From Trichoderma breve (taxonomy: Eukaryota > Ascomycota > Sordariomycetes > Hypocreales > Hypocreaceae), in contig NC_079233.1 in assembly GCF_028502605.1 (NCBI RefSeq), positions 6,820,001 through 6,884,000 on the forward strand: a stretch of DNA of 64,000 nt, read 5' to 3'. This document shows, in pieces, positions 23,401 through 43,994 of the stretch. Each line of letters starts with the position of its first letter. Position 1 is the first letter of the stretch. The notes below the pieces were generated by a model. It was given only the letters and a program-made list of their open reading frames with translations. It was not told the DNA's origin and searched no databases. Made by a program: the position numbers and the translations under genes.

Positions 23401-23548
23401 GTCGCCATTACCAGCCTTGGCGTCGTGTGCGCCATTCTTTACATTCTTTACCGCGAGCCATCTTTCAACCTTTTTATAATTTGTTTATCACTCCATTATT
23501 TCTTTCGTTCTCTCCAGATTCTACAATCTATCCTTTCGTTTCTTCGCA
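17439..23548. other. 6.1 kb gene-poor region between the Zn2Cys6 gene and PIS1
   Basis: No protein family, tRNA or rRNA could be supported here on either strand. It should contain the Zn2Cys6 gene promoter (left), possibly extended, and the PIS1 promoter and leader (right). A purine microsatellite lies at about 17627-17657 and GTAC-palindrome clusters near 19180-19215. The right part (about 22.6-23.5 kb) is visibly more AT-rich. Long noncoding transcripts, or a gene with many small exons, cannot be excluded. Confidence 0.5.
17627..17657. repeat. AGAGAA purine microsatellite
   Basis: A run of AGAG/AAAG units on the + strand lies just upstream of the Zn2Cys6 coding region, probably in its leader. 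Confidence 0.75.
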
Positions 23549-24542
23549 ATGCCTCCACGACGAGTTGTGGCGCAGCGAGATCAGAATCGCGAACGAGACA
23601 ATGCCTCCAACCAGCCTCCAGACCAGGATTCTACTCAGACATCCTCAGAAAACATATTTTTATTCTGGCCCAACATCATTGGTGCGTCTTTTTTCTCTAT
23701 GCTACATCGTATGCCCTGCTCACTACTAATATGACACCATGTCTAGGATATTTCCGAGTGATCTTGGCCATAGCCTCCCTTTACTATATGCCACTTCATC
23801 CACGCACCTGCTCTCTTCTCTACACTATATCATGTCTCCTCGACGCTCTTGATGGATATGCTGCGCGTATGCTGGATCAGGGCACGCAGTTTGGCGCAGT
23901 TCTCGACATGGTCACGGACCGTTGCACCACGACATGCCTGCTGGTTTTCTTGGCGGCGGCAATGCCTCGCTGGGCTATTGTTTTCCAGGGTCTAATTGTG
24001 TTGGATCTTGCAAGTCATTATATGCACATGTATGCATCTCTTGTTGTCGGTGGTGCTGGAACGAGCCACAAAGACGTCGCCAACAGCCAACACTGGTTGA
24101 TGAGGGTGTATTACACGAACAAGGTGCGCAACTGCCATGGCCAAATCTATACACTGAGCTCTGACGTGTAATTCAGATTGTCTTGTTTTCTCTCTGTGCT
24201 CTCAACGAGCTCTTCTTCATCGCCTGTTACCTTGTCTCCTTCTCTTCACCAGTCGATCCTCTCTACTTAAATGCAGATATTGACGGAAGAGAGCATTTAC
24301 AGACAGGGACAGAGATTGACACCTCGCTATTAACTCAAATCTTCCCAAACCCTTATAGCTCTGCAGCGCTTGAGATGGCGCGGGCGAACAAAATGGACGG
24401 ATACCTGCCGAATATTATTGCCAAGATCTGCTTTTCGTTCATGGCGCTGAAGCAAATAATTAATGTCATCCAGTTGATTCAAGCCAGCAAACGATTGGCA
24501 AGGGTAGATGTAGAGCGAAGGCGGAGAAGCAAACAAACGTAG
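23549..24542 (+). CDS. pis1: Phosphatidylinositol synthase
   Basis: Three exons, 23549-23681, 23747-24123 and 24177-24542, give 291 aa. The introns are 65 and 53 nt; the first has an ACTAAT branch. The CDP-alcohol phosphatidyltransferase motif is complete: D77, D80-G81, A84-R85, G94, D98 and D102 in DALDGYAAR...G...D...D. This enzyme joins CDP-diacylglycerol and myo-inositol to make phosphatidylinositol in the ER membrane, and several membrane segments follow the motif. It is an essential single-copy function in fungi. The C-terminus is Arg/Lys-rich. The stop lies only 92 bp from the convergent stop of the giant DUF6603 gene. A degenerate copy of its last exon lies about 20 kb away near 44.4 kb. 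Confidence 0.93.
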
Positions 24543-24634: not shown

Positions 24635-27600
24635 TTACGAATGTCCAACTGCCACCAATGGCACAGCCGGCACCATGGTTTTGAACCGTCGTAACAACTC
24701 CTTGGGTGGCGTTCCAACCAGCGGTGCGGGCTTTCTCTTGTCGATCTTCCCAGGTCCACCGCCGTCCTTTTCATCTCCCGTTTTCGTCACTTCATCTTTC
24801 TTTACCTCGAATCCTAACCTCCTTGCCCATATTTTCACAGCATCCTCAGGCGTCTTGTGGCCAATATCCTGCCATGTCTTCTGTACTTGCTGCCAGGACG
24901 CGCTCTGTCCCTTGGGCGACCAAGCCTTGTCTGAGTAGGGTGTGTTGGGGAAGTACGAGTTGTGCTTCTTCTTGTCCCCATCGTCAAATACTTGCTTCAT
25001 TCGGTCTTGGACAATGTTGAACGGATTGACCTTGTCATCGGCGAGACCCGGACAGGGCGGCTTGATCGCCAGGCCCATGACTAGAGGGATAGTTGCGTTT
25101 TCACCATTGAGCAGCTGTTTGACATGATTACCTGCGACACTTGGATCTTCGCTGCGGTTATCTGCCGAAGTCACTCACGTTAGCACTCGTATCCTGTACC
25201 GCACAGCAGAAAAATACTTACAAATTCCCCAGATAGAGCTCTGCACAGGCTTCACTATGGGCTCAATCCGCCACTCCATCGCCTGCCAGTCCTTCATAAT
25301 GCTAAATCGATGGTCGTCCAGCGGCTTTGGCGTGCTCGACTCAACCAGGATCGTAGCTTCAGAAGTCAGCGAGTCAGTAAGCTGCATAGGCTTCCCGTAG
25401 ACCTTTTGATGCTCTGCTTTGATCTTGGCAGATGCACACTTGCGGTCTTTGCCATCGCGGAGTTCGACGACGGATGCCTTGTTTATAGCAAACTGGAACG
25501 TGACTAAGAAGGAAAAGCTGCCACCACGCACCAGCCAGGGATCGTCATCTTTAGCCGTTGTCCCTGGAGGAGCTGGTTCGAGACCAGACTCGCATGTTAG
25601 CAGGATGGCCGCATTGTCTTGCTTCTTCTTCTTGTCGTCATCTTTGTTGTCGTCGTTCTTCATGCCATCATCTGATGTGAGCATCGATGGCGGCGATGGC
25701 CCAGACGTCTTGAGCACAACGTTCCAGAAACGCTCGAGAGTGACAGCCGGAGGTGGCTGTGGCGGAGCTCCAAAGTTCACGTCGAAACCAAACACCCAGA
25801 AGTCAACATGCACGACACCGCCAAAAGGAGGACCGGACATGTCGAGGGTAGCACTGACCTCGGCATTGATGCGTACCGTGACGATCCACAGATCCATGGT
25901 GAATCGCACTCCCACAGAGAGACGGCTTTGCAGCTGGAAGTGGAAGGGCTCAAAGTTGATCAGGAAATCAACAAACGCGTCGAACCAGGCATAGAGAGCG
26001 CCGAGACTGAGTGCCGCGTGCAAACGGCCGCCTCCCATGCATACCTTTGGCGTGATGGCAAAGTAAGCCTCACCAGTTACACTGAGGCAAGAATCCAACG
26101 ACCAACTGATCCCCAAACGCGGCGGCTTTGGATACTGAGACGGCGGACTGAATGCTTGGTGATATCCGCCCAAGGTGAGGACCCAATCTCCAGCTGCAAT
26201 GTTGTCCTTCACATCGTCTTTGAACCACGCATACATGGCCAGTCCGCCAGTAAGATGACACTGCGGCGCCAGGACAAACGAACGCGGCGACAACTGAGCC
26301 TCGAGCTTGAAGACGCCACGGTTCACGTCAAAGGTGCAGATGATGCCGAGTTCGACATGGGCAAACTTGACGGGCGATTCCAAAGCAGGGACATCGCACG
26401 TGGCAACACCAAACAGCCCAAACTGCAAGCCAGCTCCAAACTGCACCACGATGACAATGTTCGCAGCGAGCATCTGGAACGCCGTGATACGAACTCCAGC
26501 AGCGGCCCAGTACAGCCCTTCGGCGGGACGAAACCAAATGCCTCGCATCAGGCGCGTCATCGTGTCGACGGGCGTTTCTTTCGTCCCTTCTCCACGCTCG
26601 GCAACGAAGGGAAACTCGACGACTTGCTCGACAGTGGGCAGAGCAATATCAGAATTCATACCGAAGCCACCGACAAGGCCAGCAAAGTCTGCAAATGCTA
26701 CAGAAAACAGCGGTCCGTTGAGCTTGCAGAAGATGAATGCAAAGGTGAACTTGTTACCTTCTTCATCCTTCTCGTCCCCATCGTCTGTGAGGCGCATGTT
26801 TTGGCTAAAGGGAGATAGACTGATGACGGAAGACGAAGATGGCTTGGTAATGTCATCCTTGCTGACGGTTGCATACACACCCATGGCTTGGAACATCCAC
26901 GGCTTGAAGCCAATGATTAGTCCTCCCGCGTACATGTCGACCTTGGGATCCGATGTATCGTGCATGAAACCACCCGCGACGGTCAGTGGTGGACGGTCTA
27001 GAGAGACGATGAGGCCCTGAAGACCAAACGTAATGTCATCTAAGGATGGCGGATTCGAGAGGCTGGTTTTACTGTTCAGGGGCACACCGATGGTGAAGCC
27101 GAGCAGTGCAATGCCGATAGGACCCATCAACAGCGTGGCATCTAGAGTGATGCCCAGAACACCATCGCCGTTCTTGTCTGACTGATACCAGAGACCAATA
27201 TTCTCAACGGATAACGGGCCAAGCGTCATCTTGTGCGGTGCTTTGGACCCCTTTTCGGACCCCGTCGGGTCAGGCGGCCCAGCTTTCCCAGCTTTCCCAT
27301 CTTTCCCATCTTTAGATGCCATGAGCGCCCTATTTTGTCCGTTGTAAGATGTTATGCTTGACTTCTTGCCGCCAGACTTCTTGTTCGGCTTGCCAAAAGC
27401 ATAGTCGAGAATTACGCTTGTCTTGCCGGCTGATGGGCTCTTGGCAACCACCACAAAGTGCGAGCCTGCAGAAACCACGGTTTCAGTATCAGCTCCCTTT
27501 TCTTGTTTCCTTGGCTTATACAATAAGAATTCTTCTTCTGGAATCTGAGCTTTAGTCGTCAAGCACTCCTTCAAGATCTCGAACTCGGCCTGTGATATGC

Positions 27601-30600
27601 CAGGGATAGCCGTATCGTTCTTTTCGTCCGGCTTGTAACCCGTGTCCTGAACCCACATAAAGAACATCTGCTCAAAGGGGCTGTCGAGCGTCGTGTTGAA
27701 GACAGGCACGTCGACCGAGATCTTGCTGATGGCAGCCTTGACGAGGCGCTTAACTAGCTTTCCCTCTGACCGGAACTGCACAAACCAGAGCGAAATGCTT
27801 CCAATATTGATGAGGAGGGCAAACACAGTCATCTTCTTGTGCTTTGCGCAGAGAACACGCAACGGTTTCTCCCCTCTCTTGCCACTCAGCTCTGCGCCTA
27901 GGATGGCTGAAGGCAGTCCAGCTATGTTCTTTGGATCTATAAGAGCATTGAGCACCTGCTCTATGGTACAGGCCGTCCCATCCTTGCTTTCGGCGGCAAG
28001 ACTGCCTTCGAATAACCAATTATCAGATCCTTCATTCTCATACGTAAGACCGAGTTTAAGAATCTCACCAAGAGCCAGAACACCAGTGAACTTGAAGTGA
28101 GTTCCAGCACCCCCCTTGGCATAACTATACTCGAGTCCGGCGTATTCGATCTCGATCTTTCCGAGAAAGTCAATCACGTCGTTCTGGTCGCCATTATGCC
28201 AGAACGATGCCAAGTGCCCGATGTTCAGATTCGAAACATCAGCAGCCAGCTTCCAGTTGCCCTTGTCGTACGCAAGCATGCCGTGAAGGTTGGCGGCCTG
28301 CAGTTCCTGCAAGTCTGGGTCCTTGTCTGGATCAAGTTTTCCATTCTCATATAGTTTGATGGCGACTGCAAGTCTCATACTGAACCCTTTGTCATCGGGG
28401 CTCTTGACCCCCCAGTTATACCCTGCATCTAGTTGAAGGTCATCCAATGCAATGGGCGGCGGTTTAGACCTATCGGCTGTATCCCGATTTGGCGTCGGAC
28501 AGCGGATGGCGCCGCTGAACCAGATCTTTTGCTGCGACAGCTCAATCTCGGCACGATAGATCTGTGTCGGAATACCAGCGGGAAGCTTGAATGGTTCGCC
28601 ACTGGGTGACGCCAGGAGATTTTCAATGTCCAAAGTACGCAGCTGGTTATCAGGGTCCGGATTTGTCAATGGATCCAGCTCCATGTACGGCTCGTACTCG
28701 GGCAACGCTTTGCCATACTCATCATAGGGAGTTGGAGGTACAGCACACCAAAGATTGCCCTTGAGGAACACGCCGAGTGTCCTGGACCATCCAAACTTGA
28801 GCAGGAACAAGATGGGCTTCTTGGCGAGGGCGGCCGCGGAAGACTTTCCGATCTTGAGACAAGCCTCGAGTGTTATATCGACCGATTCGACTCCCTCTAT
28901 GTTACCCTCCTTATTGAGGTTCAGAATAAGCTGCATTCGGCGTGGAAAAATGGTGTTTCTATCAACAGCACCCCCATCTTCAGACTTTGCCTTGTCCAGT
29001 ATATCCGTTATCTCGAGCGATTTGAGCTTCAAGGTTGTGCAAAGCCAGGCCACGATAGCGTCAAGAGCATCCTCACGCGTGGCGTTAATCTCAAGTGCCG
29101 TTTTTGGTTTGCGTATCGTCAAGGTCAATATCGCTGAAGACGTCTCCAAGGTCAGGGCCGCATCAAAGCCAAGGCCCGGTATGGAGAACTGCAGAAGAAA
29201 AGTGAGACTCCCCTCTGGCTCGATCCTATCGGCGTCAGCCCCAAAGGCAAACTGTGCCTTCTTCCGAGCAACCACGGTGACGCTCTCGATCGTGATGTTT
29301 GGGAGACACTTGCCGAGCCATTTACTAAATGTAGAGTGGTCGGCTTGGAAACCGAGACGCAAGTGTGTCTGATAGTTGATGCTTGGACGAAACCAGAGGG
29401 CGTTGCGGAAGTCTTTTGTTGTATTGAGAGTGAGCTCGATCGGTCCAAACAACTTGAGCACGGGATGATGGGATAGTGTTGGATCGCTGGTAGCCATGCC
29501 GGCCACCTCACCAAGCGTTATCACAAGGGGTTTGTCTGTAGGCAGTGCCTCCAGCCCGAAAACCAATGTGCGGCGTTTGACTAGCATGCTTTGCAGAGCC
29601 AGTTTGTCAACTTTGACATCGGAGAACGTCAGCTCTGCACCGGCAGAAGTGCTCATGGTCAACGATCGACTTCCAAAAAGAAATGTGAGCTTGAATTCTA
29701 GTCCAGTAGAACTGTTGAGTGGCCAAGCAACTGGTGTCATCGAGAGGTTAAAGCCAGCAGGTGTCCCCGGACTGTCATAGTCCCACTGAAAGAAGAGACG
29801 GAACCAGAGAAACCATTCATCATCATTGGCAAGCAACGCTTCTTCTTTGGCATTTGGTACAGTTCTCAGGCTAAAGAGCCTATAGTGTAGAGTGTCAACG
29901 AGGCCAAAATGGTCATGTTCCCTTGGAAGCGGTATGACAGGTACACCCTCCGGGAACTTGGACTTTTCAGAGATTAGCGACTCCGAAGCAATATAAGCAG
30001 CTGGCGAAACCGCAATATGAAGAGGAACATGGCGACGCTCTACTACCAACGTCTTGGTCTTGGCCTCGCCATCAATATCGCTCCATGAATCGTCGTCGGA
30101 CTCGGATTCGGATGAGTCCAGAAGATCGACATCAACCCAAGACCCCTGCCTCTGATGATTATTTCCCCTCGGGCTCTTCTTGGTTGTCTTTTTTGGGAAT
30201 TTTGGATTTCCCCTGGACAAATCCCACGCACCAGGCCTGTCTTCGCCTGGATCTGCAAAAAGACTGACTCTCCGCGGCTCTTCTTTGTTGGCAATTGCGA
30301 AAGCATGCAGGGTATTTACATGTGGGAGCTTCCAAACGAAGGAGGGATCAGAAAATATGAATGGCTTTTGGTTCTGGTACACAACCGCAACCACTCCATC
30401 AAAGCCGGAGTCGCTTGGTGCTGAGATGATATTGATAGCCACAACCTTCTGCACGCCGAGTCGGGGGATGTCGACTGGCACAGCATACCCCAAAAAATTT
30501 GTTTTCCAGACAATGTTGCTGACCCATGTAGGTTCCGGGCCATAGGGGAGCGAAGTGAGGTCCGCCATCATACTATAGGTCATATCGCAGATTTTCTGGC

Positions 30601-32066
30601 GTTGTTCATTTTCGTCTGGCTGTTTGCCGTACCATTGAGTGTACTTGTTAACCCAGTCCGCAAACTCTTCCAACGGTGACAGGGGAATTGCTGTAAGCCC
30701 TTTCTCGTTACGCTCCTCGATGTACTGCTCCTGGTATGCGTCCATCCAAGGCCGTAGAGTTCCATTCGGGTCGTACATCTCGCCGATGCTCCATTTATGC
30801 GGATCATACATACCAAATTCGTTCTTGAGGAGATACGAAGGTAGCTGGCAGGGCAAAAATGGCCGCCAGCGTGGTGCTTTATTTTCTGATGCATCAATGG
30901 ACTTTTGGAATCGAAACCATGACGCCAGAATCCAGATTATCTCCCACCCTACATGTTGAAATCAGAAATCTATCCTAGAACTTGGGCTTTTGAAGACTGA
31001 GAAACCAAAGTGGAAAAGACTTACTGGGGTGGCCGTACTGTAAGCCGGCAGAGACGACAACGTTGCGAGGGCTGAAGTCTACTATCATCTGAGGGGGGTT
31101 AGATGATCGTGAGCCGTGGTGGCTCAACTTCATCGATGTCACTTGACGGTCATGGACACCCCCATCAGCCGTTTTATATTTTGTCCAATCCGCTATATTC
31201 TTCTCCAGGGTGTCATGCGCATCTCCCGCAAAGTAGTGAGAAATGTGCTTATCCCCCCAAATAACCAAGAGCACAATGCTTGACTTGTTCTGTGGCGTAT
31301 GTAGCGCGTTGGCGCCGTTATACAGGGTTTTTTCGGACACTGCCACGCAGTAGAGGCCTGGATACTTGGCATATTGTTTCGTACCGGGTTGCTTTGGAGG
31401 ATTTTCTGCCAACAGTCCATCCAGAGTGCCCATCTGTGCCCATTTATGTTGCCAACTGTTGTCTTCGTTCCAGCTGTTGAAGAAATTGCGTCCCAGGAGT
31501 ACCTCGTAACCCCACCTCGCCCTGAGGGTACTCAACGCTACTCTTGTTTGACCATTATTGTCTTGGACTTGGATGGCAAGATTGTACTCATTGTCGATTG
31601 CCATGTTATCCTTGTTTATCTTCCAAGGTGCATAAAACCACGAGTTGGGCTTCCAGGTCTGCTCATTGTAAAATACTCGGTTGAGTATTAACGGGTTATT
31701 GTTACCGAGGTTTTGGTTGGCAGCGTCTCTGGCCAGCTTGAAGAGATATGCAATGACGCCCTCATAGTGATCTCCGTCCCAATGGGTGATGACAAACCCG
31801 TCAAAATACAACCAACGGTAAGCTCCTTGGTTAGGGTTGTCTTGAAGCTTCGGTCGTTGGCAGACATAATTAAGTTCGATCTGTTGAATTGTGTTCTCAA
31901 GCGCTGCTTGGACCGCATTGCCTGGAGCGCGGCCGCCATCAATCATCCATGCTTGCTCAACGAGCCTTCTTCCGTCTCCAAAAACCGGCTCTGAGGTGAG
32001 AAGATGAATTGCAGCGTCGCCAGCACCGACGTTGATGTGAAACGACTCCACTCGGTAATGGGCCAT
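24635..32066 (-). CDS. Metallo-beta-lactamase (ComEC-like) and DUF6603 giant fusion protein
   Basis: I predict three exons, 31025-32066, 25222-30948 and 24635-25161, giving about 2,431 aa. Residues 1-347 form a ComEC/Rec2-type metallo-beta-lactamase domain: an ESFHINVGAGDAAIHLL start, metal motif THWDGDHYEG, FAGDAHD, LSHHGSRSSN and the closing QYGHP. The rest is a giant beta-rich protein. Its region at about residues 1590-2070 resembles DUF6603, with VENIGLWYQSD, LQGLIVSLDRPP, CHLTGGLAMYAWF, LTLGGYH and VVHVDFWVFGFDVNFG. Acidic and collagen-like linkers lie between, such as DGKDGKAGKAGPPDP. There is no signal peptide. The 76-nt first intron has a CTGAT branch and joins the two parts in phase. 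The second part has no ATG until residue 16 of its open stretch (30811). If the intron is wrong, there are two tightly packed genes. Function is unknown; a hydrolase fused to a large surface-like body is all that can be said. Confidence 0.75.
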
Positions 32067-32908
32067 CTGAATGTCGTTTTGGAGGAGTTCGTGGTGTGAT
32101 GAGAAGAACTGGCACCATTGACCATCTTTGGGAGTTCTCTCTGAATGATTGATGTTCAGAACTTACACACTTGATTGAATCGAATAACCCTTTTCATCCG
32201 CACCCAGAGATTGTTATTTGCACGCCTCTTCGCCTCTCGCCCCCCGAACACCACCTCCATTGTCCAGTTTCCCAGAAACCCCTGCCGTGTACTAGGAAGT
32301 ACCGATCATCGGGGGGGTTAGCTAGGTGGAGAGACGCAGAGCTGAAATCAGCAACTATTGAGCAGGGGCTCATCTCAGCTGGAGCTAGCGATTCTCCTAG
32401 CCTCCTCTCAGGCTTGTAGAGCGGACATGGACAACTTGTCAGAACTCAATTCTAACACTTGCCATGCGATATGATAGCTACGGACGGAACATGGAGGCAG
32501 TCGCTAACCAAAGAGCTCTTTTGGTGGAAAAACTCACAGAAGTCCCATGAAGACTGAATCGAACATTGAGGGCAAACAGAACTACATTCGAATACTACGG
32601 CTTCCAGAAATACACCGCCTTTATTGTTTATATAAGCATTCGGATAAGTAATAGGCCCAGCAATTAAAGTCAAATCAGACGGGAATCAGAGATAGAACAT
32701 GACACCGCATTTATTAACCACTAGAAAAGTATCTCTTTGCGTGTACAGATACTAAGAGCATACATCATAATTTCGCTCGAATCCGAATCTTGAGCTTGTC
32801 TGTTATTACTGTTCCAGCAGGCAGCTCGAGTTCAACCTCAACCTCAGCCTCCAGCCCAGCTACTCGACCAACAGCTTCGCCGCTGAAGCTTGGCCTACGA
32901 CTGTCAAG
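32067..32908. other. Intergenic region between the fusion gene and the lectin-like gene
   Basis: This 0.84 kb stretch holds the promoter of the fusion gene and the 3' end of the upstream neighbour. Both genes are on the minus strand. No coding region is supported. Confidence 0.55.
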
Positions 32909-34056
32909 TCACTTTTCCTCGTTGCTGTCTGCAGCCCAGTTGTCACGGATGGCGCTGACAGTGTCACTCTCCTCCATAAGAGTGTAGATCCAGTTGCACT
33001 GCTGCTCGTGGTCTACAACAACGCTCATCTGCGCCGTAGCCTGGACGGCCTGCGGGCCCTTGCCGGCCTCGATGGGGCCCTTCCAGTCGGGAGCGTACTT
33101 TTTGTCTTCTATATCCGCATATCTGCGTTGCAAGATGTTGTTACCGCCGTGTTTGTAGAGATAGTAGACAAAGGCTCGTCCAAGCACGTTGGCATTGGGC
33201 TTGAAACTGGGCACCTTGTTGGGGTCGATTTTTTCGGTAGGGACGAATGCGCAGGCAATTGGAGTGTAGGGCATGAACGTTTTCTCGTCATCGTCAATAT
33301 CGGAGTCTAATAGTTCAACGTAGTGAGCACAGTGTTATTTGATGGAGCATGATACTTGAAAGCTCACCTTTTCCCTTGTTTGCGTTAAAGATGGTAAGAC
33401 GGTTGTTGTCAGACTGGAAGACAACCCATTGGGATTTGCCATCATAGAAAGCTCCCAGCCACGTCTTCTCCAACACATGCTCGACTGAGAGATTGGTAAT
33501 GTTGGCCGTAGCTCCGGATACTTCGCTTCTCTTGATGATGACGTTCTTTCCATCGGCCGATTTTCTACATTCGGTCAGCACTGCAAATCTTCACACCGGG
33601 TTAACTCGCTAGAGATACGTACGACTGGTAGTATATCCAAAGGTGTTCGTTGTCGGTGCAGCCAGCGATGAACCCGTTCGGCACCACGATCTTGTTTCCT
33701 TCTTCATCCTTGGCAACATGCTGATGAACTGGATGGAAAAGCGAGAGCACAGCGATAGGTTCTGGCGGTGTCTCCCCAGTCTTTGGGGGTGTGTACATAG
33801 ACACGCCATAGACGAATGCGGCGTCATCGTAGTTGATTGTCACCAACGACGATGGGTTCTTGACCTTTTGCGAGAGAGGGCCACCGCTCATGCCATCGTG
33901 ACGGCGAGGAGTCTTCTCTGCCGTTCGGAGTTTGCGTTGCTCGAATGAGACGGTGTTATACTTGGAGGTTGCAGAAAAGATGAGGACACGCTTGTCGCCA
34001 ACTGAGCTAGGTCTGTCAGCAGTGACGGGGTTGATGACAGCAGAAACGGCGCTCAT
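32909..34056 (-). CDS. Small propeller/lectin-like protein in the accessory block
   Basis: Three exons, 33623-34056, 33368-33564 and 32909-33306, give 342 aa. The introns are 58 and 61 nt with GT-AG ends, and the first has a GCTGAC branch. I do not recognise a firm family. Repeated short segments of the type aromatic-Tyr/Phe-x-x-(x)-Asp/Asn-Gly recur at roughly blade spacing: WIYYQSKSADGKNV, WVVFQSDNN, FVYYLYKHGGNNI and WIYTLMEES. They resemble the blades of fucose-specific lectin-like beta-propellers. There is no signal peptide or membrane segment. Its position between the giant fusion gene and the 1,488-aa gene, on the same strand, suggests a shared role. The lectin-like reading is inference. 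Confidence 0.7.
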
Positions 34057-35446
34057 CTTGACGGAAGAAGTAGTACAGAACTAAAGGCAGCTAATGAATT
34101 GAAAAGACTCAAGTAAAAGTCGGGTTGTGTCAACAAGCAGGATCAAATCCGTTGTCTAAAGTAGAGGAAGGACCACTGCTTTTGATCAAGGAAAGTTATA
34201 GCATCATCTATAAGGCCACACATCAACTCAACCGAGCTGAACAGACGGCATTAAACATCCATATGTCGATAATGTCGCTCAGCTCATCAATTGAGCGCTA
34301 ACCCTTCCTTTCTAAGGATGGCAAGTCGTCACAGAGTGCCTGACAATGACAGATGATCCAGTCTTTCATCCAGGTGATAGTCCACATCTTCGCAGCCGCC
34401 CGCTTCAGCACAAACTATTGGCTTGGTGAATCGCCTGAGTGCTGAACCGCCCAGTGAAGCTAGGCAGTTCTTGTGATTGTGTCTCGCTTCAGACGGATAA
34501 CTCCACGTGGTTAAGCTTGGAGTCTGTCGCAAAACAATCCGGGAGTGATAGTCTAGGCTCATGGCAAGGCATTCTTGCCCCCTCACGGGCAATGGTCAAT
34601 GGTCAATCGACAGTGGAAAAGGTAACATGATGGGGTCATTACGATCTTGCAGGTGAAAAGAGGCTGGCTGTGAATGTTGAAGTCCGCATACCAGTCGCTA
34701 TCACAGCCTAAATGACAAAACTACAAACACGGGTCGCTCAATAGCGCAGCATTGGACCTGGTCTAGCGGCATGATCAAGCCAATAGCGTATTATTGAACC
34801 TAACTTAGCTGCGATCATGTCGGGAAATAGTGCTGATGCAATGTATCTATCGGATGGAATTGTCCGGTCCAATCCTCGAGGCCTGGCTGATTGCCACACG
34901 CCATTCGTCAATCAAGGGAGCATCGTGTCTCGGAACTCAGCAACAGCTGATGAACTCAGCCAGGCAACGGAGTTTCCCAGCCGTTACTACAAGGGTGTTT
35001 CACTCTAAGCTGAATAACCAGATCGAGAGCTGGAGCTGAGGTCTGGACTTACACCCTGGATCAAAAGCATCAATAGTCTTCACTAATAGCGTCTCTCTAT
35101 TAATGGCGTTTGACGGCTAGCCCCGGCTCCCGATTCCCCGTACGCCACTCGAGAGTAACAGCGGCCCGGTAACGGTAACGGGCCGCAGTTAATACATGTA
35201 CATATCAACGACAGTAGTTGGAGGCGAGTGCAAGACTGTCTAGCCGCTGTCTTTTACGCCTCCCACACAGTTGTGAGAAGTTAGTAGTTATTGGCCCGCG
35301 TGATCTTAAGAGACTGCCAATACTTGCCGTCGGCCAATCCTGGGGTTGGGCATTCTGATACATTGTCCGCACTATACGGGAGACTATTCGTGAGCAGCAA
35401 ACATTTGCCATCTTGTAGACTAATTATTCTCCTCTAATGCAGCCTT
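34057..35446. other. Intergenic region between the lectin-like and 1,488-aa genes
   Basis: No gene is supported in 1.4 kb. It should carry the promoter of the lectin-like gene and the 3' end of the 1,488-aa gene. A strong hairpin lies at 35161-35186. Confidence 0.55.
35161..35186. repeat. Perfect 8-bp GC-rich inverted repeat
   Basis: GCGGCCCG and its exact complement CGGGCCGC flank a 10-base spacer (GTAACGGTAA). It lies about 260 bp beyond the stop of the 1,488-aa gene, possibly in its 3' UTR. A structural or binding-site role is possible but unproven. Confidence 0.7.
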
Positions 35447-38400
35447 CTACTTCTCATTAACGCCCGCAGCCATCTGCAGGTACCCCTCGATGGCCGTATA
35501 TGGCCCCCGCTCCAGCTTTGACTCCTCTCCCAAAACCTCAACAGCCAACGGCATGAACTTTTCCCGCGGCTTCTCTTCCTCTTCATCACCCGTGATACTC
35601 TTTTCACGTTCCTCGTCAACATCGTAAGGCTGGAGCCAGCTCCACATCCCCAACGCACCACCCGGTAGCCCCACGGATTGCTTCTCTTCCCCCTCCACGC
35701 CCTCAACCACTTTGGGTGGCAAATCCCCCTGCTTCAGCTGCCTCGCCTCCACAAACCCTGGCACGTCTCCCGTGATTAGCACAGGTCCGGCATGGAAGAA
35801 GGCGGATAGCTTGTCCAGGGCTCCCTGCCACGTCCACGTCGGTAGGGAAAACTCCTTGACGGGCAGGATACCAGTGTATGCATGGACGGGGAGGAAAGGG
35901 TCGAGCAGGGCGCCGAAAACGGCAAGCTTTTCGTTTGCATCAGCGGCGTATGATGCTGGCGTGCGGTCGTTGTTGTCCGGGTCGAGATAGTATGGCTTTA
36001 GGAGAGGATAGTTATCCTTCGTGATAGTAATTATCTTGGTGAGCGTTGGGTTTGGCTGCTCATCTTCGTAAGCAGATGCCGTCGGAGAAATCTTTGCCAA
36101 TTCTTCAGTCGCTATATCATGAACACCGGGCGGGAAATGTGTGTAGAATGTCGATACGTCAAGAGCATTGCCTTCTTTTAGCTCGGACTTGGAAAGGGGA
36201 GGAAAGTATCCCACCAGCCCATCAAACCCGCGCTCCCGGTCGCCCAGCTTGACGCGGAATTCGTAATCAAGGAGCGTCTTCTTGGGTGTGTTGTCCTGCG
36301 ACAGATGACTTTTCCACGGGGAACCAGCAAGTTCCAAGGAGACTCCAAAGTACGTGAGGGCTAGGGGTCGACCGAGCAATGCACTTCGAAATTCGGCATA
36401 CGCGCTTGGTGCAGGTGCTATTGATGTTGTAGCAGCGTTGATGGTGGCAATAAACCTGCGGAGATAGGGGTAATTCTCTCCCAAGATCTTGACCAGCCGC
36501 GCGAGCTGTTTGGCTGCAGCACCGCCGTCTTCCTTGCCGCCGCGCCTGGACGGATCGTCAGGTTTCTCAAAGGGCAGCCACTCTGGCGACAGGAGTGCTC
36601 CAGTAGGACCAGCGCAGCGAACCTCTCGATAGAAAGCACCCGAGGGGAGGAAGAACTGCACTCCAAAATTTGCATAGTTGACGACAACCCAGCCCCAGAT
36701 GGGCTGATCCCAGTCGTGCGTAGCCCTCCAGAAAGGAGGCATTGGGTCGTCCTCATGCAGAGGGGGCTCTGATGGAATCGTGAAAACCGCATTGAGACGT
36801 GCTGGCTGGTTGATCTGCGGCGGCACTTGGATGTACTCGCACTTTGTCTCATTCTCCTTCTTCACCTTTCCAACGACGTTGGGAGATTCTGGGTTCGAGC
36901 TTTTGGCCTGTGGCGCGTACCAGTCGCTGATGCAGGGATACAGCTTCGGAGTCAGCTCCTCAGTCGTGGGCTTAGGGTCGATTGCGTGGATGGCCTGGCC
37001 AAACTTGTCAATGATGTTTAGTTTGGTGATGCGGAATTGGCCATGGGTTACGGGCTTGAAGACGGCCGGCCCATCGTCGTCAGGTTTACTTTTGCTGCGT
37101 CCATACGGCGTGAGATCGGTCTCGATGCCCATATTTTCAAGTACCTGCTCCGACAATCCAGCTTCCTTGCGAGCCGCTTCGCCCATGAACCTCACTGCGC
37201 CAGTCACAGGATCGCGTATCGACGGCTTGACATGATTCCCCTGCTCGACGGTGAGCATGTGGCTGTTAAACCCAGACAGGGGCGCAGACAAAAAGTCGAA
37301 TTTCCTCAGGCTCTTGGCGAGTTCCTCGCGGTCCTTGAATGGTAGTAGCTTTTCTAGCTTCTCCGCTGCCGTATCGGAAAAGAGTTGTAGGATTTTGGCC
37401 TCGAGCGAGAAGCTAGGTTGTGGGAGGATGAGTGCTCGGCCTGAGAATCGCCGGTTGTCGACTTCTTTCTTGGTCTTGTCGCCGTATTTATCTTCCAAGG
37501 TCATGTCTGGTTTGATAGCATAGTGCAGCTTGGCGCCTTCGCTGTGCCACCATTTCGACTCGGCAAGCTCCCAATCCTCATGGTCGATATGAGTGTACTC
37601 AACCTCCCATTCAAGAAACAAAGGGAACCAAGGTTGCATATTGTTCCAAGAGTCACGCCAAACAGGCTTCCCCTTATGATCCAGACCTTGACGGTCATGA
37701 AAAGTTGGCATCTGGGGACTTATTTTCTGTCTCCCCGGTTTCTTGGGAGCATCATCGGATAGCCCACCCATAAATCCATGAGTCCTCAAGAAGCTTGGTG
37801 TCTTTGGTGTACCGTCATCCTCATCTCTTCTCCTTGTTCGCAGCACAACAAATTCGCGGAGTAGGGCTTGGGCTGATGCTCTCAGAGGTTCAGGCATCTT
37901 CTTAGTTACAAAGTCTTTAAAGAGACTTCCCCAGCCATCCTCCTCCTCACGGGGGACAGCAGTTTTTGTTTCTTCGAGCAATTGAGCATCGAGTCTGATC
38001 AGGAGTGTGTGCAGATAGTCTGGTTCCCAGCCAGATCGCACGCCTCCAACGAGCAATGTCGGGTCGCGCTGCTGATGAAAGGGCGGATGCACACCTGGTT
38101 CGAATTCCGTTGCTTCATCCCCTTTCTTTCCGTCAGTCAAGACTGAAATTAAATCCTGCTTGCTGATACCCAGCAATTTCTCCAAGGCGTCAATGCTGTC
38201 CAAGATTGGCTTCAGCGCATTCTTCACGTCTAATTCCTTCTTAGCCAGCGTCACAGCCTGCCACCACTCCGCAAAGACGGCCCAGCGCTGTCTCTTGAGC
38301 TTCCTGTCTGCTGCATCTCGGAAGCGACACAAGTCGTTCAGCTTGATCAAGTCTCCCCTCTTGTTCTCGGGAATGACCGGCTTCCCGCCACTTTCACCTC

Positions 38401-39913
38401 CAGAAACATGATACTGTTGCCCGCCATCCAACCTTGTATAGTTCCAGTTATACATCATGTCTGCCCCCTGCGCGTGCGCTTCAACGCCATCATCCCTGCT
38501 CAAGAGCACCGTCTCAAGCCGTTTCAGTGCCGACTCAATCTTTTTGACATCTTCATTGGGGTTGTCCTTATCTGCCTCGTGCGCGCCCGCGTACGCCATC
38601 AGTGCATCCATTGGCGTCGTTCCTACTGCCACAGGGAGCTTCTGGCTCAACATCTCAGCATATTTATCCGCGAGGATAATCTCTGGTACCTTGTGGAGGT
38701 CCCAGGAAACATCATACACCGCGCCGTGGCAAAGACTTCGTGTGCCTTGTTCCCTTCGAGGAAGACATTCGTCAAGCCAGTCGACGATTTCCTGCGGGAT
38801 AATGTCGTCAAAGTCGAGCTCTCGCGGGTGGAAACCTTTAAAGTCCATGTCCAGCCTCTTTAGTAGCTGCGCACGAGTCTCAGACTTCCCTTTGAGCCAT
38901 ACAATGTCCTTTTGTGGTTTGGAGTGCCATCCGAGGACAGAGTAGCTAACTGATGGAACCCGGGAGGCGTACAATGGCTTGGTTTTGTTGTCACCGATAT
39001 CAATGCGGTCATACTCAAAGTTATCGACGATGGAGAAAACATTGGAGTTATGCGGCTGGTAATCTGGAAAGAGCTCATTGGACGAAGATAGGAGTCGTAA
39101 GTTGACGCGTGACTTGCTAGTATCTGTTGTTCCGTCCTCAGGCTGGGTTTCCTTCCACTCTGATGCTTTTCTCTTATCGCCTATGAAGATTTCGGCCTGT
39201 TTCTCCAAGACATCTGAACCTCCGTTAACCACGGAGTCGGATGCGCTGACGAAAGGTGACACGTCAACTTGAAGATCAACTGTGCCATCAAGAACATTCC
39301 AGGGTTTCTCGAGTGTACCATCGTCGGGTTTTCGTTCTCCGTCGAGCGTTCGGCAGCGGTCACTTTCGACAACCCACGCAGAGACGCTTTTCAGCTTGTC
39401 CTTTGCTGCACAAGGTTGGACGGCCTCAAGGTCGTGTATGTGACGAACGACTAGCCATCGTGTAGGGACCTCGGGGAAGATGGGAAGCCCGTTTCTGCCG
39501 TTTTCTGCATCGCTCGTTGCAGCACTACCACTCCGGTATATACGGGGGAGCGTCCAGTGGAGATAGATGCCCTGTCGGTTTTCACGCCGAGAGCGAGACC
39601 CGAGATCTGTAATGCGCGAGTTGAAATCGGCCGGGCAGGCGTTATGTAAGTCGGTATGATACAGGATGTCGGACTGGAGATATGATTTTCTGAGACGCAG
39701 AAATGAATAATTGGGCTGTGAGATGGGTGCAATTTTGGCTTTTCGTGCTCTCAGCTCATCGTCATCATAGCCGCCGTCACAGACTTTATCATTGAGGACA
39801 AATGCATCAAGCTTGACGGGGATGAGCACGTTTTGATCTGCGTTGGGTATCATCATGGCAAGTTTGTGAATGCTCGTTCCTGTGTCTTCAGGGAAAATAT
39901 GAAGAAGAACCAC
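35447..39913 (-). CDS. Giant 1,488-aa intronless protein of unknown function
   Basis: A single open frame of 4.5 kb without an intron is unusual for this genome. The N-terminal part has conserved-looking motifs: LIPVKLDAFVLN, IAPISQPNYSFLRL, ITDLGSRSRRENRQGIYLHW and then VPTRWLVVRHI (about residues 148-158). From memory, proteins with the same PVKL, YLHWxLP and WLVVR signatures exist in actinobacteria, myxobacteria and some fungi, mostly unannotated. I cannot name a Pfam family. A later region (about 1070-1110) is WGWVVVNYANFGVQFFLPSG followed by a strand-rich stretch. There is no signal peptide or transmembrane helix. The true start may be the Met-Met at residues 20-21 (MMIPNADQ), because the conserved part begins there. 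It is divergently paired with the 1,173-aa gene and lies in line with the lectin-like and fusion genes. Confidence 0.85.
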   Translation of the reverse strand: MVLLHIFPEDTGTSIHKLAMMIPNADQNVLIPVKLDAFVLNDKVCDGGYDDDELRARKAKIAPISQPNYSFLRLRKSYLQSDILYHTDLHNACPADFNSRITDLGSRSRRENRQGIYLHWTLPRIYRSGSAATSDAENGRNGLPIFPEVPTRWLVVRHIHDLEAVQPCAAKDKLKSVSAWVVESDRCRTLDGERKPDDGTLEKPWNVLDGTVDLQVDVSPFVSASDSVVNGGSDVLEKQAEIFIGDKRKASEWKETQPEDGTTDTSKSRVNLRLLSSSNELFPDYQPHNSNVFSIVDNFEYDRIDIGDNKTKPLYASRVPSVSYSVLGWHSKPQKDIVWLKGKSETRAQLLKRLDMDFKGFHPRELDFDDIIPQEIVDWLDECLPRREQGTRSLCHGAVYDVSWDLHKVPEIILADKYAEMLSQKLPVAVGTTPMDALMAYAGAHEADKDNPNEDVKKIESALKRLETVLLSRDDGVEAHAQGADMMYNWNYTRLDGGQQYHVSGGESGGKPVIPENKRGDLIKLNDLCRFRDAADRKLKRQRWAVFAEWWQAVTLAKKELDVKNALKPILDSIDALEKLLGISKQDLISVLTDGKKGDEATEFEPGVHPPFHQQRDPTLLVGGVRSGWEPDYLHTLLIRLDAQLLEETKTAVPREEEDGWGSLFKDFVTKKMPEPLRASAQALLREFVVLRTRRRDEDDGTPKTPSFLRTHGFMGGLSDDAPKKPGRQKISPQMPTFHDRQGLDHKGKPVWRDSWNNMQPWFPLFLEWEVEYTHIDHEDWELAESKWWHSEGAKLHYAIKPDMTLEDKYGDKTKKEVDNRRFSGRALILPQPSFSLEAKILQLFSDTAAEKLEKLLPFKDREELAKSLRKFDFLSAPLSGFNSHMLTVEQGNHVKPSIRDPVTGAVRFMGEAARKEAGLSEQVLENMGIETDLTPYGRSKSKPDDDGPAVFKPVTHGQFRITKLNIIDKFGQAIHAIDPKPTTEELTPKLYPCISDWYAPQAKSSNPESPNVVGKVKKENETKCEYIQVPPQINQPARLNAVFTIPSEPPLHEDDPMPPFWRATHDWDQPIWGWVVVNYANFGVQFFLPSGAFYREVRCAGPTGALLSPEWLPFEKPDDPSRRGGKEDGGAAAKQLARLVKILGENYPYLRRFIATINAATTSIAPAPSAYAEFRSALLGRPLALTYFGVSLELAGSPWKSHLSQDNTPKKTLLDYEFRVKLGDRERGFDGLVGYFPPLSKSELKEGNALDVSTFYTHFPPGVHDIATEELAKISPTASAYEDEQPNPTLTKIITITKDNYPLLKPYYLDPDNNDRTPASYAADANEKLAVFGALLDPFLPVHAYTGILPVKEFSLPTWTWQGALDKLSAFFHAGPVLITGDVPGFVEARQLKQGDLPPKVVEGVEGEEKQSVGLPGGALGMWSWLQPYDVDEEREKSITGDEEEEKPREKFMPLAVEVLGEESKLERGPYTAIEGYLQMAAGVNEK

Positions 39914-40472
39914 CGCGCAGTTTCCCTTTTACTCGCCAAACCGAAGGCACGTCGTTCATGTGAAGATGTGGGTAGGCATAAGACAGCCTTGATAGAAGAT
40001 ACATAGAAGAATCCAGGGTCCATGCCCACAGTAGTAGATGTTCCAAGCTAGGCAATTGAATCCTTGTTCCGGGACCGCTACAGCTATCAATAGCGTGGTT
40101 CTTCCCGCTCAGCTGGGCATTTGTCTTGAAACCCCTGCTGGGATTCGCACTATTGATTCGCTAGTACAAAGCAGTGGCGATGTAGTGATCCCATGCTACA
40201 AGTCCATGCAGATCGGTACTTCTCTCTACTTTTCCTTTATTTGCCTGTGATGGAGGCATATTGGCAAGCGAGTGGGTCAGCCAGAGGAGGGCGTGGGCTA
40301 TCGAAGTCTTTGGTGTGTGTCTTCTCAGCTGTGTAGACCCCTCCATGGCTGTTGAGCTTTTCAGAGATGGCTCTATGCTCGATTTCCCAAGTGATATCTC
40401 AAGATTATTGTGTCCTTCTTTTCTTACCACAGATACGGTAGAGCCAAGGTCCAATCTTCTGGTACCTGCGAA
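39914..40472. promoter_or_regulatory. Shared divergent promoter of the 1,488-aa and 1,173-aa genes
   Basis: 559 bp lie between two start codons pointing away from each other, so the two giant genes probably share regulation. No strong known motif was recognised. A short hairpin or operator-like element was not evident. Confidence 0.55.
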
Positions 40473-43400
40473 ATGTCTCTCAAAGGACAGTATCGTCACT
40501 TGACTCTCCGTCATGAGCAACGCATTCTATGCGACGAAGTCCCCAAGCTTCAACCCGGAGAAGCCCAGTTCCACTCCTTCTATCTCCCTTCCTTGACAGC
40601 GGGCCTACACGATCTTACCATCTCACAGACTGTCACGCCAGACAAAGATGATCCTAAACACGGCAAGGAACCCCCGGCACGGGCGATTGACGTCAAGCGG
40701 CAGTTTGACGTCCTTGCTCCGGAATGGTCCCTCAGCAGCAGCGATGGCGGCGGTGGTGGCAGTAGTGACGACCAGACGTCCACAGTCATGTCCGTCTTCC
40801 CAGCACCAGGACAAACAGCACAGTTCCGGACCCTGCCGCACATGGTGTTCCGTGACCCTCACCTCCCGTGGGCACGGCGTGTGTCTAAGCAGACCCTTCC
40901 GGACAAAGAAAAGAACACGATTCCTTGGTTTGCTCTCATAGCTTTTACAGCAGAGGAGCTCGAATTAACGAATAACGAAAGAGACACAATCTTCCCTCCA
41001 AAGGTGGGTGCCACACCCAATGAGAACCTTGGCTGGGACCTCAGGGCCGGTGCGATCAAGGACATAGAAAGCAATAATGAGTTGCTGAACACGATCCGTG
41101 AGCCCGAAGACCGTGATAAACAGATCAAGACCAGTGTTGTGGCTGTTCCCGGACCGCTTTTCAAGAAGCTCTTCACCGATTCCGAGGACCCAAATCCAAC
41201 GCAGTGCGACGTTGCCAAGTTCCGATTTCTATCCCATGTCCGCACAGTCGCTACCGAGGGCACCATGTCGGCCATCGAGGGAGAGTCGGGGACATTCAGC
41301 ATTGTCATCTCGCATCGGATTGGTCCTGTCGATGTAGACTCTGCCACACCGGTCATGGTGCACTTGGTTTCTCTCCAGGGCATTGACGGATTGAAGCTGT
41401 CAGGGGTCAAAGACAAAGTTCTCATGACTAGCTTGTACAGCTGGACCTACACGGCTCTTCCACCTGGTTCCTTTGATGTGCGAAGTGCGCTTCAAAATAT
41501 TGGCACTGGTGGAAAGGGGCTCAAGGTCTTGCGAACCGACAACACCAGCACGCTCAAGGCTGACAAGTCAGGGCCAGAGTCAGGCAAGGAAAACATTGGA
41601 CTGTCCATGGAAGAGCTGGTGACGAAACGACAGAACGATGGATATACCCTCGTCCGACACCGCACCGTCACGGGCGAGCAAACAGCGGCCATGTATCGAG
41701 GGCCACTCTCTCCCACGAGAGTTGCTCATCCATTAAACGCCAATGTTTCTTTCCAATCGAACTTTGGCACAGACCTCCAGATCCTCGATCCCAACCTAGG
41801 ACTCATGGACATCTCGTATGCGACTGCCTGGCAGCTTGGCAGAACGCTGGCCATGAGTGACCAGTCCTTTACGGCCTCACTGGCTCGTCTTCGAACCGCG
41901 ATCCACCGAGACGCACTCGCCAGGGCCAAGGAAGACATTTACAAGCGGCTAGGAAGTGAAGATTCACAGACCATCGACACGGTGGCATATCATAGCCGTG
42001 CCCGCGTCGTGTCGGACATTGGCTCAACAGTTGCTTGCCTCAACGATATCAACTCTGCTTTGCATGCCTCGGCAATGCCAACCGTAGACACGAACCGGTG
42101 GAAGCGACGCGAACCAGTGCCCGAAGTCAACCTATCCCTCCGTTCAAACCACATCTTCAACCAGATGTATTCCCAAGCTCTGTATGTTTCCACCGGCTTG
42201 TCTACTTCGGCTGATGGCGGGCCGTACTGCTATCACACCGTCCCTACAAACACCGACTACGCAGTAGTACAAGAGTGGGTGCTCGACAAGCTTCATCTCG
42301 CCGGCATCCCAGCTCACCATTTCATCCCGGACCCATCATATCTCCCGCCGGAGACGATTCGATTCTTTCACGTCGATGCCAACTGGACCGACGCCATGGT
42401 TGATGGGGCTTTGAGTCTTGCCAACCACGTCACAGACGATCCTGCAGAAGATTTCTGCCGCAGCGCACTGAAAGCTCGGCTCAACGAGTACCTCTCAACT
42501 CCCCTCAAGGGCATCGGATACTGCCAGCAGATGCCTACATACGGCTTCTTGATGAAGAGCCAGCTGCTAGTACAGTTCCCTGATATTGCTGTTAGTGCAG
42601 AGTTTGAGGAGCAGTTTCACACACGGGAGGACTGGAATAAAGCCAAACCCACTGCTCCGATTCTGGTACAGCGAAAGCTGGCTTCGGATACCATGCTGGT
42701 GCTGTTTGATCGTGAGCCGCCTGGGTTGGTGAGTCTAAAATTCACTCTGCCGGCGCACCAACAGACGTTTGTGGTAGCAGCAGGCCTGCATAAGGAAGAC
42801 AGGGCACAGGGCCGCATGCAGGATGAGATTGAAGTTGAACATCAGAAGATATTTGCGTCTGAGAATCCCGAGACAGATCCTATCAAGCGGGGTGGATGGC
42901 TAGGTGGTGGCTCAAAGACTTATCCGATGGCAGAACTCTTTGACTGGCAGTCGAGGACGATGCGCGTTGTTGAGTATGCAAAGAAGATACACGAAGTTCT
43001 CAGCAAGGAAATGTTTCGGGATCCGAAGGAGGATGGAAAGCATGGACCCCTAGATCAGTACACCGAACCGAACCCGACGGCAGCGGTGTTTGCTCTCCAG
43101 CTCAACGAGCCCATATATACGCTCGTCATTGAGCCCGCACCAAGGAATTCCAACACAGTGACAGGGGCAAAAACAAGAAAGGATAATATGTCCATTTCAG
43201 CAGACTGGGAGCACCTCTCGCCTCTTCTCAGGCCTGAGCAACGCACTTCATCCTTTCGCTTCCACCCACCCCCTTTTCCAGCAGACAAATACACTCCCTC
43301 AGCGCTGCCTTCACCGCCACCCAAGCCTTTATACCAGCCGACCAATCTGCTCCAGTACGTCCCAACGGAATCCATTATTCTCCCTCCAGCACCGCCGATG

Positions 43401-43994
43401 CCAGTCACCCCCGATGTGGTTGTCGCGAATCCCAGCTTCGATCTTAAGGTCTCGCCCATCGAATACGACAGCTTCATCCCTACAAACCGCACCGTTCCCT
43501 TTGACCTCATATTCTCCATCCTCGTCTCTCCTAGCTCCCAGTCCACGTTCACCTACCGTCTTACCAAGCTCACAGTACGCCTTACTCTCGGTGACCTCAA
43601 GGATGCGGGCCTTCCCAGCCCCGACGACGACAAGTCCTACCGCCCTTTGATCGTGCGGAAGCCGAAAAACTCCGAGCCCCCGGCCCCGACTATGCTGTCC
43701 AACTTACGCTTTAATGTCCTGCGGAGCTATGACGGGGATGTGATGATCCTGGAGGTGGTCTCTCGAACGGCGTGGGGGGTGGACATGTATACGCTCAAGG
43801 AGGCGAGTTTCGTGTTGCCGATGGTAGAGGTGATACCCTGGGAGGTGCCGTTCGGCAAGGATAAAGATGGCGCGGAGAGGTATTGGAGGACGTGGGTGCA
43901 GATGAAGAGCGAGTTCTTGATGGGCAATGATCCATTGGTGTGGGAACATGGGAGAGAGGTTTTGTTGAAGCGAGAGGTCAAAGCGACTCCTTGA
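40473..43994 (+). CDS. Giant 1,173-aa intronless protein of unknown function
   Basis: A single 3.5 kb open frame. I start it at the ATG at 40473 (MSLKGQYRHLTLRHEQRI). An in-frame ATG at 40410 would add 21 residues without clear similarity. Early motifs are SFYLPSLTAGLHDLTISQTV (a beta-sandwich-like stretch), VMSVFPAPGQTAQFRTLPHM (about 106-125), LPWARR and IPWFALIAFTAEEL (about 149-162). From memory, bacterial proteins of the pattern VFPP...LPHVVL...LPWER...PWLALLxF accompany relatives of the 1,488-aa protein. That recollection needs a profile search. The C-terminal part holds Pro-rich segments (FHPPPFPADKY, LPSPPPKPLYQP) and strand-rich sequence. There is no signal peptide. It reads convergently toward the cyclophilin gene. 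Confidence 0.85.
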   Translation: MSLKGQYRHLTLRHEQRILCDEVPKLQPGEAQFHSFYLPSLTAGLHDLTISQTVTPDKDDPKHGKEPPARAIDVKRQFDVLAPEWSLSSSDGGGGGSSDDQTSTVMSVFPAPGQTAQFRTLPHMVFRDPHLPWARRVSKQTLPDKEKNTIPWFALIAFTAEELELTNNERDTIFPPKVGATPNENLGWDLRAGAIKDIESNNELLNTIREPEDRDKQIKTSVVAVPGPLFKKLFTDSEDPNPTQCDVAKFRFLSHVRTVATEGTMSAIEGESGTFSIVISHRIGPVDVDSATPVMVHLVSLQGIDGLKLSGVKDKVLMTSLYSWTYTALPPGSFDVRSALQNIGTGGKGLKVLRTDNTSTLKADKSGPESGKENIGLSMEELVTKRQNDGYTLVRHRTVTGEQTAAMYRGPLSPTRVAHPLNANVSFQSNFGTDLQILDPNLGLMDISYATAWQLGRTLAMSDQSFTASLARLRTAIHRDALARAKEDIYKRLGSEDSQTIDTVAYHSRARVVSDIGSTVACLNDINSALHASAMPTVDTNRWKRREPVPEVNLSLRSNHIFNQMYSQALYVSTGLSTSADGGPYCYHTVPTNTDYAVVQEWVLDKLHLAGIPAHHFIPDPSYLPPETIRFFHVDANWTDAMVDGALSLANHVTDDPAEDFCRSALKARLNEYLSTPLKGIGYCQQMPTYGFLMKSQLLVQFPDIAVSAEFEEQFHTREDWNKAKPTAPILVQRKLASDTMLVLFDREPPGLVSLKFTLPAHQQTFVVAAGLHKEDRAQGRMQDEIEVEHQKIFASENPETDPIKRGGWLGGGSKTYPMAELFDWQSRTMRVVEYAKKIHEVLSKEMFRDPKEDGKHGPLDQYTEPNPTAAVFALQLNEPIYTLVIEPAPRNSNTVTGAKTRKDNMSISADWEHLSPLLRPEQRTSSFRFHPPPFPADKYTPSALPSPPPKPLYQPTNLLQYVPTESIILPPAPPMPVTPDVVVANPSFDLKVSPIEYDSFIPTNRTVPFDLIFSILVSPSSQSTFTYRLTKLTVRLTLGDLKDAGLPSPDDDKSYRPLIVRKPKNSEPPAPTMLSNLRFNVLRSYDGDVMILEVVSRTAWGVDMYTLKEASFVLPMVEVIPWEVPFGKDKDGAERYWRTWVQMKSEFLMGNDPLVWEHGREVLLKREVKATP

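Follow-up and report, generated by a model that had tools for sequence, protein, structure and literature searches.

What brings four giant or otherwise odd genes together between two ordinary neighbours? The question is raised by a block in the window analysed here, the 64,000 nucleotides of Trichoderma breve contig NC_079233.1 from position 6,820,001 to 6,884,000, in which four genes sit between a PIS1-like gene and a cyclophilin gene: gene A, a fusion of a metallo-beta-lactamase (MBL) hydrolase with the domain DUF6603 (PF20248), a small gene, gene C and gene D. A reading made from the letters alone (the sequence-only reading) had placed these genes and called two of them intronless; the positions are borne out by open reading frames, splice models and Pfam matches of the flanks, and C and D are indeed single open frames. 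Here we report homologues of the block in bacteria and tentatively propose that it is the fungal counterpart of a conserved bacterial operon, DUF6603–D–C, a proposal we judge jointly with steps on origin, assembly and conflict.

Bacterial relatives of the block

Homology was examined with hidden Markov models (HMMs) built from bacterial rows alone and run against 413 frames, from the window and from a second block of the same genome on contig C8, together with the spliced product of gene A. The MBL model matched the window alone, in gene A (E = 2.7e-17); the DUF6603 model matched the window (1e-141) and C8 (1e-161), the D model the window (3.9e-91) and C8 (9.3e-95), and the C model the window (5.6e-138) and the retrieved part of C8 (3.9e-66). 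No other match at E of 10 or better appeared in this set. The window holds homologues of all four members of the bacterial MBL–DUF6603–D–C cassette and departs from the one-strand operon order, with D divergent on the plus strand and A and C on the minus strand.

Within gene A, the DUF6603 region reaches 492.9 bits in Pfam, far over the curated cut-off of 27, for an entry that describes a domain of unknown function and gives no operon, MBL fusion or partners. Genes C and D match no Pfam family, nor does the MBL exon of gene A. That exon encodes HxDxDH at residue 95, FxGDA at residue 279 and SHHGS at about residue 315; all three motifs (HxDxDH, FxGD and HHGS), which we take to be those of ComEC-type MBL nucleases, are present. 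Gene A shares HxDxDH and HHGS with ComEC-type MBLs and with LmuA of Lamassu, RTasMBL and Avs1a of AVAST, and its profile matches in PADLOC, NCBIfam and PHROG are weak, covering about 95 residues for the defence and ComEC profiles. PADLOC gave LmuA at E = 1.3e-12, RTasMBL at 1.2e-10 and Avs1a at 3.6e-05. Gene A differs from these proteins in that its MBL is fused to DUF6603 and misses the NCBIfam cut-offs for Avs1a (NF041809; 33 of 420 bits), 6A-MBL (15.9 of 220) and ComEC_Rec2 (14.1 of 190).

A tblastn search with C returned two Embleya and two Paenibacillus plasmids at 23-25% identity. In Embleya NBC_00896 (locus L016) the order is an MBL gene (PF00753, 46.2 bits), an extra frame and DUF6603, D, C, and a fibre-like protein with an F5/8C domain. 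A scan of bacterial genomes with a DUF6603 alignment confirmed 370 loci, the best 80 of which were retained; within the stretches retrieved, DUF6603, D and C occur together in 79 of them, and in the remaining one, L079, D was not found on a contig that ends shortly past DUF6603. The commonest order is DUF6603–D–C on one strand, while C lies upstream of DUF6603 in the permuted loci L079, L082, L084 and L086. Between C and DUF6603, L082 and L084 carry an MBL enzyme and L079 an EEP enzyme. A free-standing MBL gene stands directly upstream of DUF6603 in 14 of the 80 loci (weak, non-adjacent MBL matches in L063 and L071 are left out), and the same pair is fused in fungi. Several proteobacterial DUF6603 frames are longer than 3,200 aa. 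The three that were fetched, L107, L108 and L109, are giants of 3,249-3,416 aa, and after each come D, divided between two frames, and C.

What surrounds this core is more varied. A candidate gene downstream of C is present in 75 of 84 loci examined, and in 66 of these 75 it belongs to one single-linkage BLAST family, the E protein, with fibre-like repeats as judged by eye. Domains at the E position include F5/8C (L016), LamG, a collar domain just under cut-off (L078) and S74, also just under cut-off (L086, outside the 66); in eight of ten E-position proteins scanned no domain was found at E of 0.01. Upstream genes, ten of which were scanned, gave an EEP domain over the Pfam cut-off in L079 and under it in L047 and L065, a subtilase in L028 and a hemopexin match in L021. 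Hydrolases identified upstream, or linked to one by BLAST clustering, number about 23: 14 MBL, seven EEP or EEP-linked, and two subtilase or subtilase-linked.

Linkage, spread and ancestry

The second block, on C8, holds a D homologue (37% identity to the window), a DUF6603 gene (529.6 bits), a small gene and a C homologue (41-49%) within about 21 kb; the MBL domain was found once in the genome, in the window. Adjoining the D gene of this second cassette are frames with NACHT_N and ankyrin domains (L004:4870-9043), likely a fungal NLR gene. Between its DUF6603 and small genes lies a 285-aa frame (L005:1176-2033, minus strand) with a GNCAE motif and no Pfam family, which could be a different enzyme module.

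Other fungi carry the set as well. Protein searches were evaluated over the best 120 of 331 matches for C, the best 120 of 187 for the DUF6603 part and all 77 for D. With contigs equated by size as a proxy, 17 contigs are common to the three lists, and for 32 of the 77 D rows a C or DUF6603 row lies on the same contig. Locus tags for A, C and D run closely in Heterodermia (Q9195_004531/4529/4528), Fusarium lateritium (ACHAPT_008702/8700/8699) and Arthrobotrys conoides (TWF506_006107/6105/6104), each with one tag number between A and C, just as the window has one gene there. Of the listed fungal DUF6603 proteins, HxDxDH occurs within the first 300 residues in 35 of the 40 longer than 2,100 aa, 14 of which have HHGS too, and in none of the 41 of 1,450-1,850 aa. 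Fungi therefore have both MBL-fused and unfused forms of DUF6603.

Linkage is also visible in genome-wide counts. Among 396 Actinomycetota genomes, a sample centred on G001, which was picked as a carrier, DUF6603 occurs in 12, D in four and C in four; D and C are found in the same four genomes, all with DUF6603, and eight DUF6603 genomes are without them, so that D and C imply DUF6603 but the converse is false. In those eight DUF6603 is divergent, scoring 29.5-89.4 bits with our HMM where two cassettes fetched alongside score 398 and 824. Their loci, L097-L104, make up a second lineage of DUF6603, in which the second gene is related to D and the third gene is large. The second-gene family is recognised in seven of the eight loci (L104 is not among the rows shown), and a profile of four second genes matches D (hhalign 91.9%, E = 6.9e-7) and shows no match to C or DUF6603. 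In L098, where the third gene was tested, it has no detectable similarity to C. Near DUF6603 in two of the divergent loci lies an M64 peptidase (over cut-off) or a PhoD-like domain (under cut-off). In the phyla of other chosen centres, counted with the centre itself, DUF6603 occurs in 9 of 299 genomes (Azospirillum), 3 of 194 (Crocosphaera) and 1 of 199 (Paenibacillus), and in none of 14 control genomes. Furthermore, across 78 bacterial loci the pairwise distances of the three proteins are correlated (0.80-0.86 for DUF6603, D and C), at a level reached in 0 of 999 permutations and fed also by common species history and duplicate loci. The earlier suggestion of one structure or pathway thus stands as far as a linked set is concerned, with co-occurrence, co-variation, the second block and the other fungi behind it, whereas the assembly of the products is something we infer.

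Bacterial copies come from Actinomycetota, Bacteroidota, Pseudomonadota, Chloroflexota, Cyanobacteria, Paenibacillus and SAR324. The named fungal matches shown (best 120 for C and DUF6603, all 77 for D) belong to what we take to be Pezizomycotina. In trees of DUF6603, D and C (205, 161 and 203 sequences), whose fungal set was gathered with fungal queries and counts metagenome proteins as fungal, the fungal copies form one clade without a bacterial leaf, with support of 1.0, 1.0 and 0.887; in a concatenated tree, built by a fast method from 19 fungal rows and 36 of the 78 bacterial ones, the fungal clade has a support of 100. It is most likely, to judge from these sequences, that the cassette is ancient in fungi and was acquired once from bacteria, not recently; bacteria are favoured as the source because the bacterial spread is broad and the fungal spread narrow. 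The sequence-only reading, which thought the genes possibly acquired from bacteria, holds up in this ancient form only: bacterial homologues and their broad spread speak for it, but the fungal-only clade, the long stem and the many Pezizomycotina do not fit a recent event. A fungal-only phylogeny, which that reading had named as evidence against itself, is in part what the clade of all fungal copies provides. Within the fungal clade, the window is placed with Colletotrichum eremochloae, and Cladophialophora carrionii with Fusarium lateritium, each at an SH-aLRT of 100. Both groupings disagree with the classification of fungi, and they hint at transfer between fungi or at old duplicates followed by losses.

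Features of the locus

Coordinates of the four genes, the domains of gene A and the two flanks are collected below.

Features of the block and its flanks, in window coordinates
Feature	Position	Strand	Basis and remarks
PIS1-like CDP-alcohol phosphatidyltransferase (flank)	23206-24171	+	Pfam, E 4.4e-12; outside cassette
Gene A, MBL hydrolase–DUF6603 fusion, 2,431 aa	32066..24635	-	Splice model
Gene A exons	32066-31025, 30948-25222, 25161-24635	-	Splice model
MBL domain, gene A exon 1	31025..32066	-	Motifs, bacterial MBL HMM, PADLOC LmuA
DUF6603 domain (PF20248)	25508..27229	-	496.7 bits in a further search
Small gene, 342 aa, 3 exons	32909..34056	-	Splice model; propeller/lectin likeness by eye only
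Gene C, 1,469 aa from first ATG, intronless	35447..39856	-	Open reading frame; homologue of bacterial operon C protein
Gene D, 1,173 aa, intronless, single open frame	40473..43994	+	Open reading frame, bacterial HMM
Cyclophilin + RRM (flank)	44573-46057	-	Pfam; outside cassette

For A, C and D alike, the nearest named proteins are Trichoderma proteins (94-96% identity). The length of 1,488 aa first given for C corresponds to an open frame (39913-35447) of 1,488 codons counted from a GTG, but the first ATG pair yields a protein of the length of P0001, a 96%-identical Trichoderma protein. The core of D is homologous to bacterial D, and its C-terminal beta-sandwich (residues 978-1169) is missing from the bacterial rows shown. 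For the small gene, the description as a lectin-like propeller could not be confirmed: it matches no Pfam family, and tblastn against the bacterial loci at E of 1 listed no match. At the protein starts, the first 40 residues of gene A are without a strongly hydrophobic stretch, and the starts of C and D appear hydrophilic by eye.

The GC content of the block, 0.47-0.55, is similar to that of the flanks, and composition therefore gives no sign of recent transfer. Positions 23500-45000 contain no repeats of at least 40 bases, and no backbone synthase domain of a fungal biosynthetic gene cluster was found by Pfam in the block frames scanned.

A proposed complex and its rivals

What might such a set do? 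We suggest that an ancestor of the present carriers took the cassette up from bacteria, that the MBL hydrolase was joined to DUF6603 in one branch of the fungi, and that the cassette was later duplicated and perhaps moved between fungi. Its products would join in one complex. DUF6603, modelled as an amphipathic beta-meander with porin-like strand order, may form a barrel, a channel or conduit, or a (lipid-facing) groove; C and D would make the body around it; surface binding would fall to E in bacteria and perhaps to the small gene or the extra beta-sandwich of D in fungi; and the hydrolase would be an exchangeable active part, MBL here and elsewhere EEP, subtilase or M64 peptidase. The most likely use, in our analysis, would be conflict between cells, with the enzyme brought to a competitor or released against it, or serving as an internal defence effector. 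We prefer conflict to a role in a coat or in metabolism, given the patchy occurrence of the set and the exchange of the enzyme in the loci where one is identified. The MBL of gene A is a putative nuclease-like hydrolase, and nucleic acid would be the first candidate substrate because the ComEC MBL is described as having nuclease activity (PMC12455585) and defence MBLs are the nearest profile matches.

This explanation as a whole, an old bacterial cassette in fungi whose products form one complex used in conflict, we put at a probability of roughly 0.45. It builds on homology, gene order, co-occurrence, co-variation, the fusion and the kept MBL motifs, and several points weigh against it. The use in conflict is argued by analogy. 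Structural matches of DUF6603 have root-mean-square deviations of 10-19 Å, which leaves the closing of the meander into a barrel putative, and residue alternation is expected for any two-faced sheet. The 80 bacterial loci are those most like one Embleya query, include several per genome and the identical pairs L053/L054 and L055/L056, and partly trained the HMMs. An upstream hydrolase is identified or BLAST-linked in only about 23 of them; among the ten upstream genes scanned, one of L082 encodes a methyltransferase–TPR protein, and those of L052, L061, L066 and L086 gave nothing convincing. The FxGD pattern is found in 0 of 13 bacterial MBLs searched, and HHGS in just 14 of the 40 long fungal DUF6603 proteins. 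No E homologue was found in the fungal blocks, and a comparison of E with the C-terminal domain of D was non-significant (P 0.013, probability 3.3%). Finally, the trees are unrooted between bacteria and fungi and give no direction, and the fungal stem is long.

It is conceivable, though in our estimate unlikely, that the same ancient cassette is an intracellular defence system. Its targets would be viruses, mobile DNA or, once hyphae have fused, non-self; the MBL would act as the nuclease effector, and the large proteins would provide a sensor or a scaffold. The resemblance of the MBL to the LmuA, RTasMBL and Avs1a effectors, the lack of an obvious secretion signal at the protein starts, and the NACHT_N and ankyrin gene adjoining the C8 block would all agree with this. 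Yet no NTPase or recognisable sensor domain was found in the cassette, the MBL falls far short of the curated Avs1a and 6A-MBL cut-offs, and the lectin-type and collar-like domains at the bacterial E position fit an outer surface better. We similarly doubt a structural or metabolic complex, such as a cell-surface or spore-coat layer or a system for polymer or lipid handling, in which DUF6603 would be an ApoB-like lipid groove or platform and the hydrolases would process the coat or polymer. Its spread is patchy for such a role, at 12 of 396 Actinomycetota and 9/299, 3/194 and 1/199 in three other phyla, and enzyme exchange among MBL, EEP and peptidases is unusual for a housekeeping structure.

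An origin in fungi or another eukaryote, followed by passage to bacteria, would be compatible with a root that is not fixed between the bacterial and fungal clades. We regard it as highly improbable: many bacterial phyla stand against the Pezizomycotina of the named fungal matches shown, and the free-standing bacterial MBL before DUF6603 resembles a pre-fusion state. A chance neighbourhood of unrelated large genes, for which speaks only that C and D are without a Pfam family, is rejected as having next to no credibility in view of co-occurrence and co-variation in bacteria and a second block in the same genome.

Returning to the cassette as a conflict complex, two known kinds of system invite comparison. 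Contractile injection particles share with it the fibre-like protein at the end of the bacterial operon and one collar-like match just under cut-off; additionally, one cassette copy on a Paenibacillus polymyxa plasmid lies about 9 kb downstream of genes for phage baseplate V and DUF4280 (L014:1-5265). In contrast to such particles, PHROG matches come through the MBL domain only, except that the L016 fibre-like protein has two weak matches (E 0.06 and 0.09), and no sheath, tube or baseplate genes are among the 25 Pfam families shown, of 127, for 83 chosen neighbour proteins. Multi-component toxin complexes combine an exchangeable enzyme, a pore-like part, a large body and a surface-binding part, the same logic of parts that we propose for the cassette; this likeness would be one of working principle, since C and D match no such Pfam family and pore and delivery are putative here. 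Neither 'DUF6603' nor 'PF20248' appears in the literature searched, which leaves subscription journals and preprints outside, and a description elsewhere is possible.

A bolder version, which we consider rather unlikely, would have bacteria and filamentous fungi share a new machine, with a DUF6603 pore or conduit, a C/D body, a surface-aiming part and an exchangeable hydrolase cargo, either a protease or a nuclease-like MBL or EEP. Such a complex would serve as weapon or defence; fungi would have received it as an entire operon and remodelled it through gene fusion. That fungi should have taken over a complete multi-protein system from bacteria and maintained it, with a fusion mirroring the bacterial gene order, would be unusual if true. 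The co-varying, very large proteins of this set span several bacterial phyla and many Pezizomycotina, yet the set is nameless and two of its members are without a Pfam family. Its exchangeable hydrolase may offer a handle on function, through comparison of MBL cassettes with EEP or peptidase cassettes, for what seems to be an unknown molecular machine common to bacteria and moulds.

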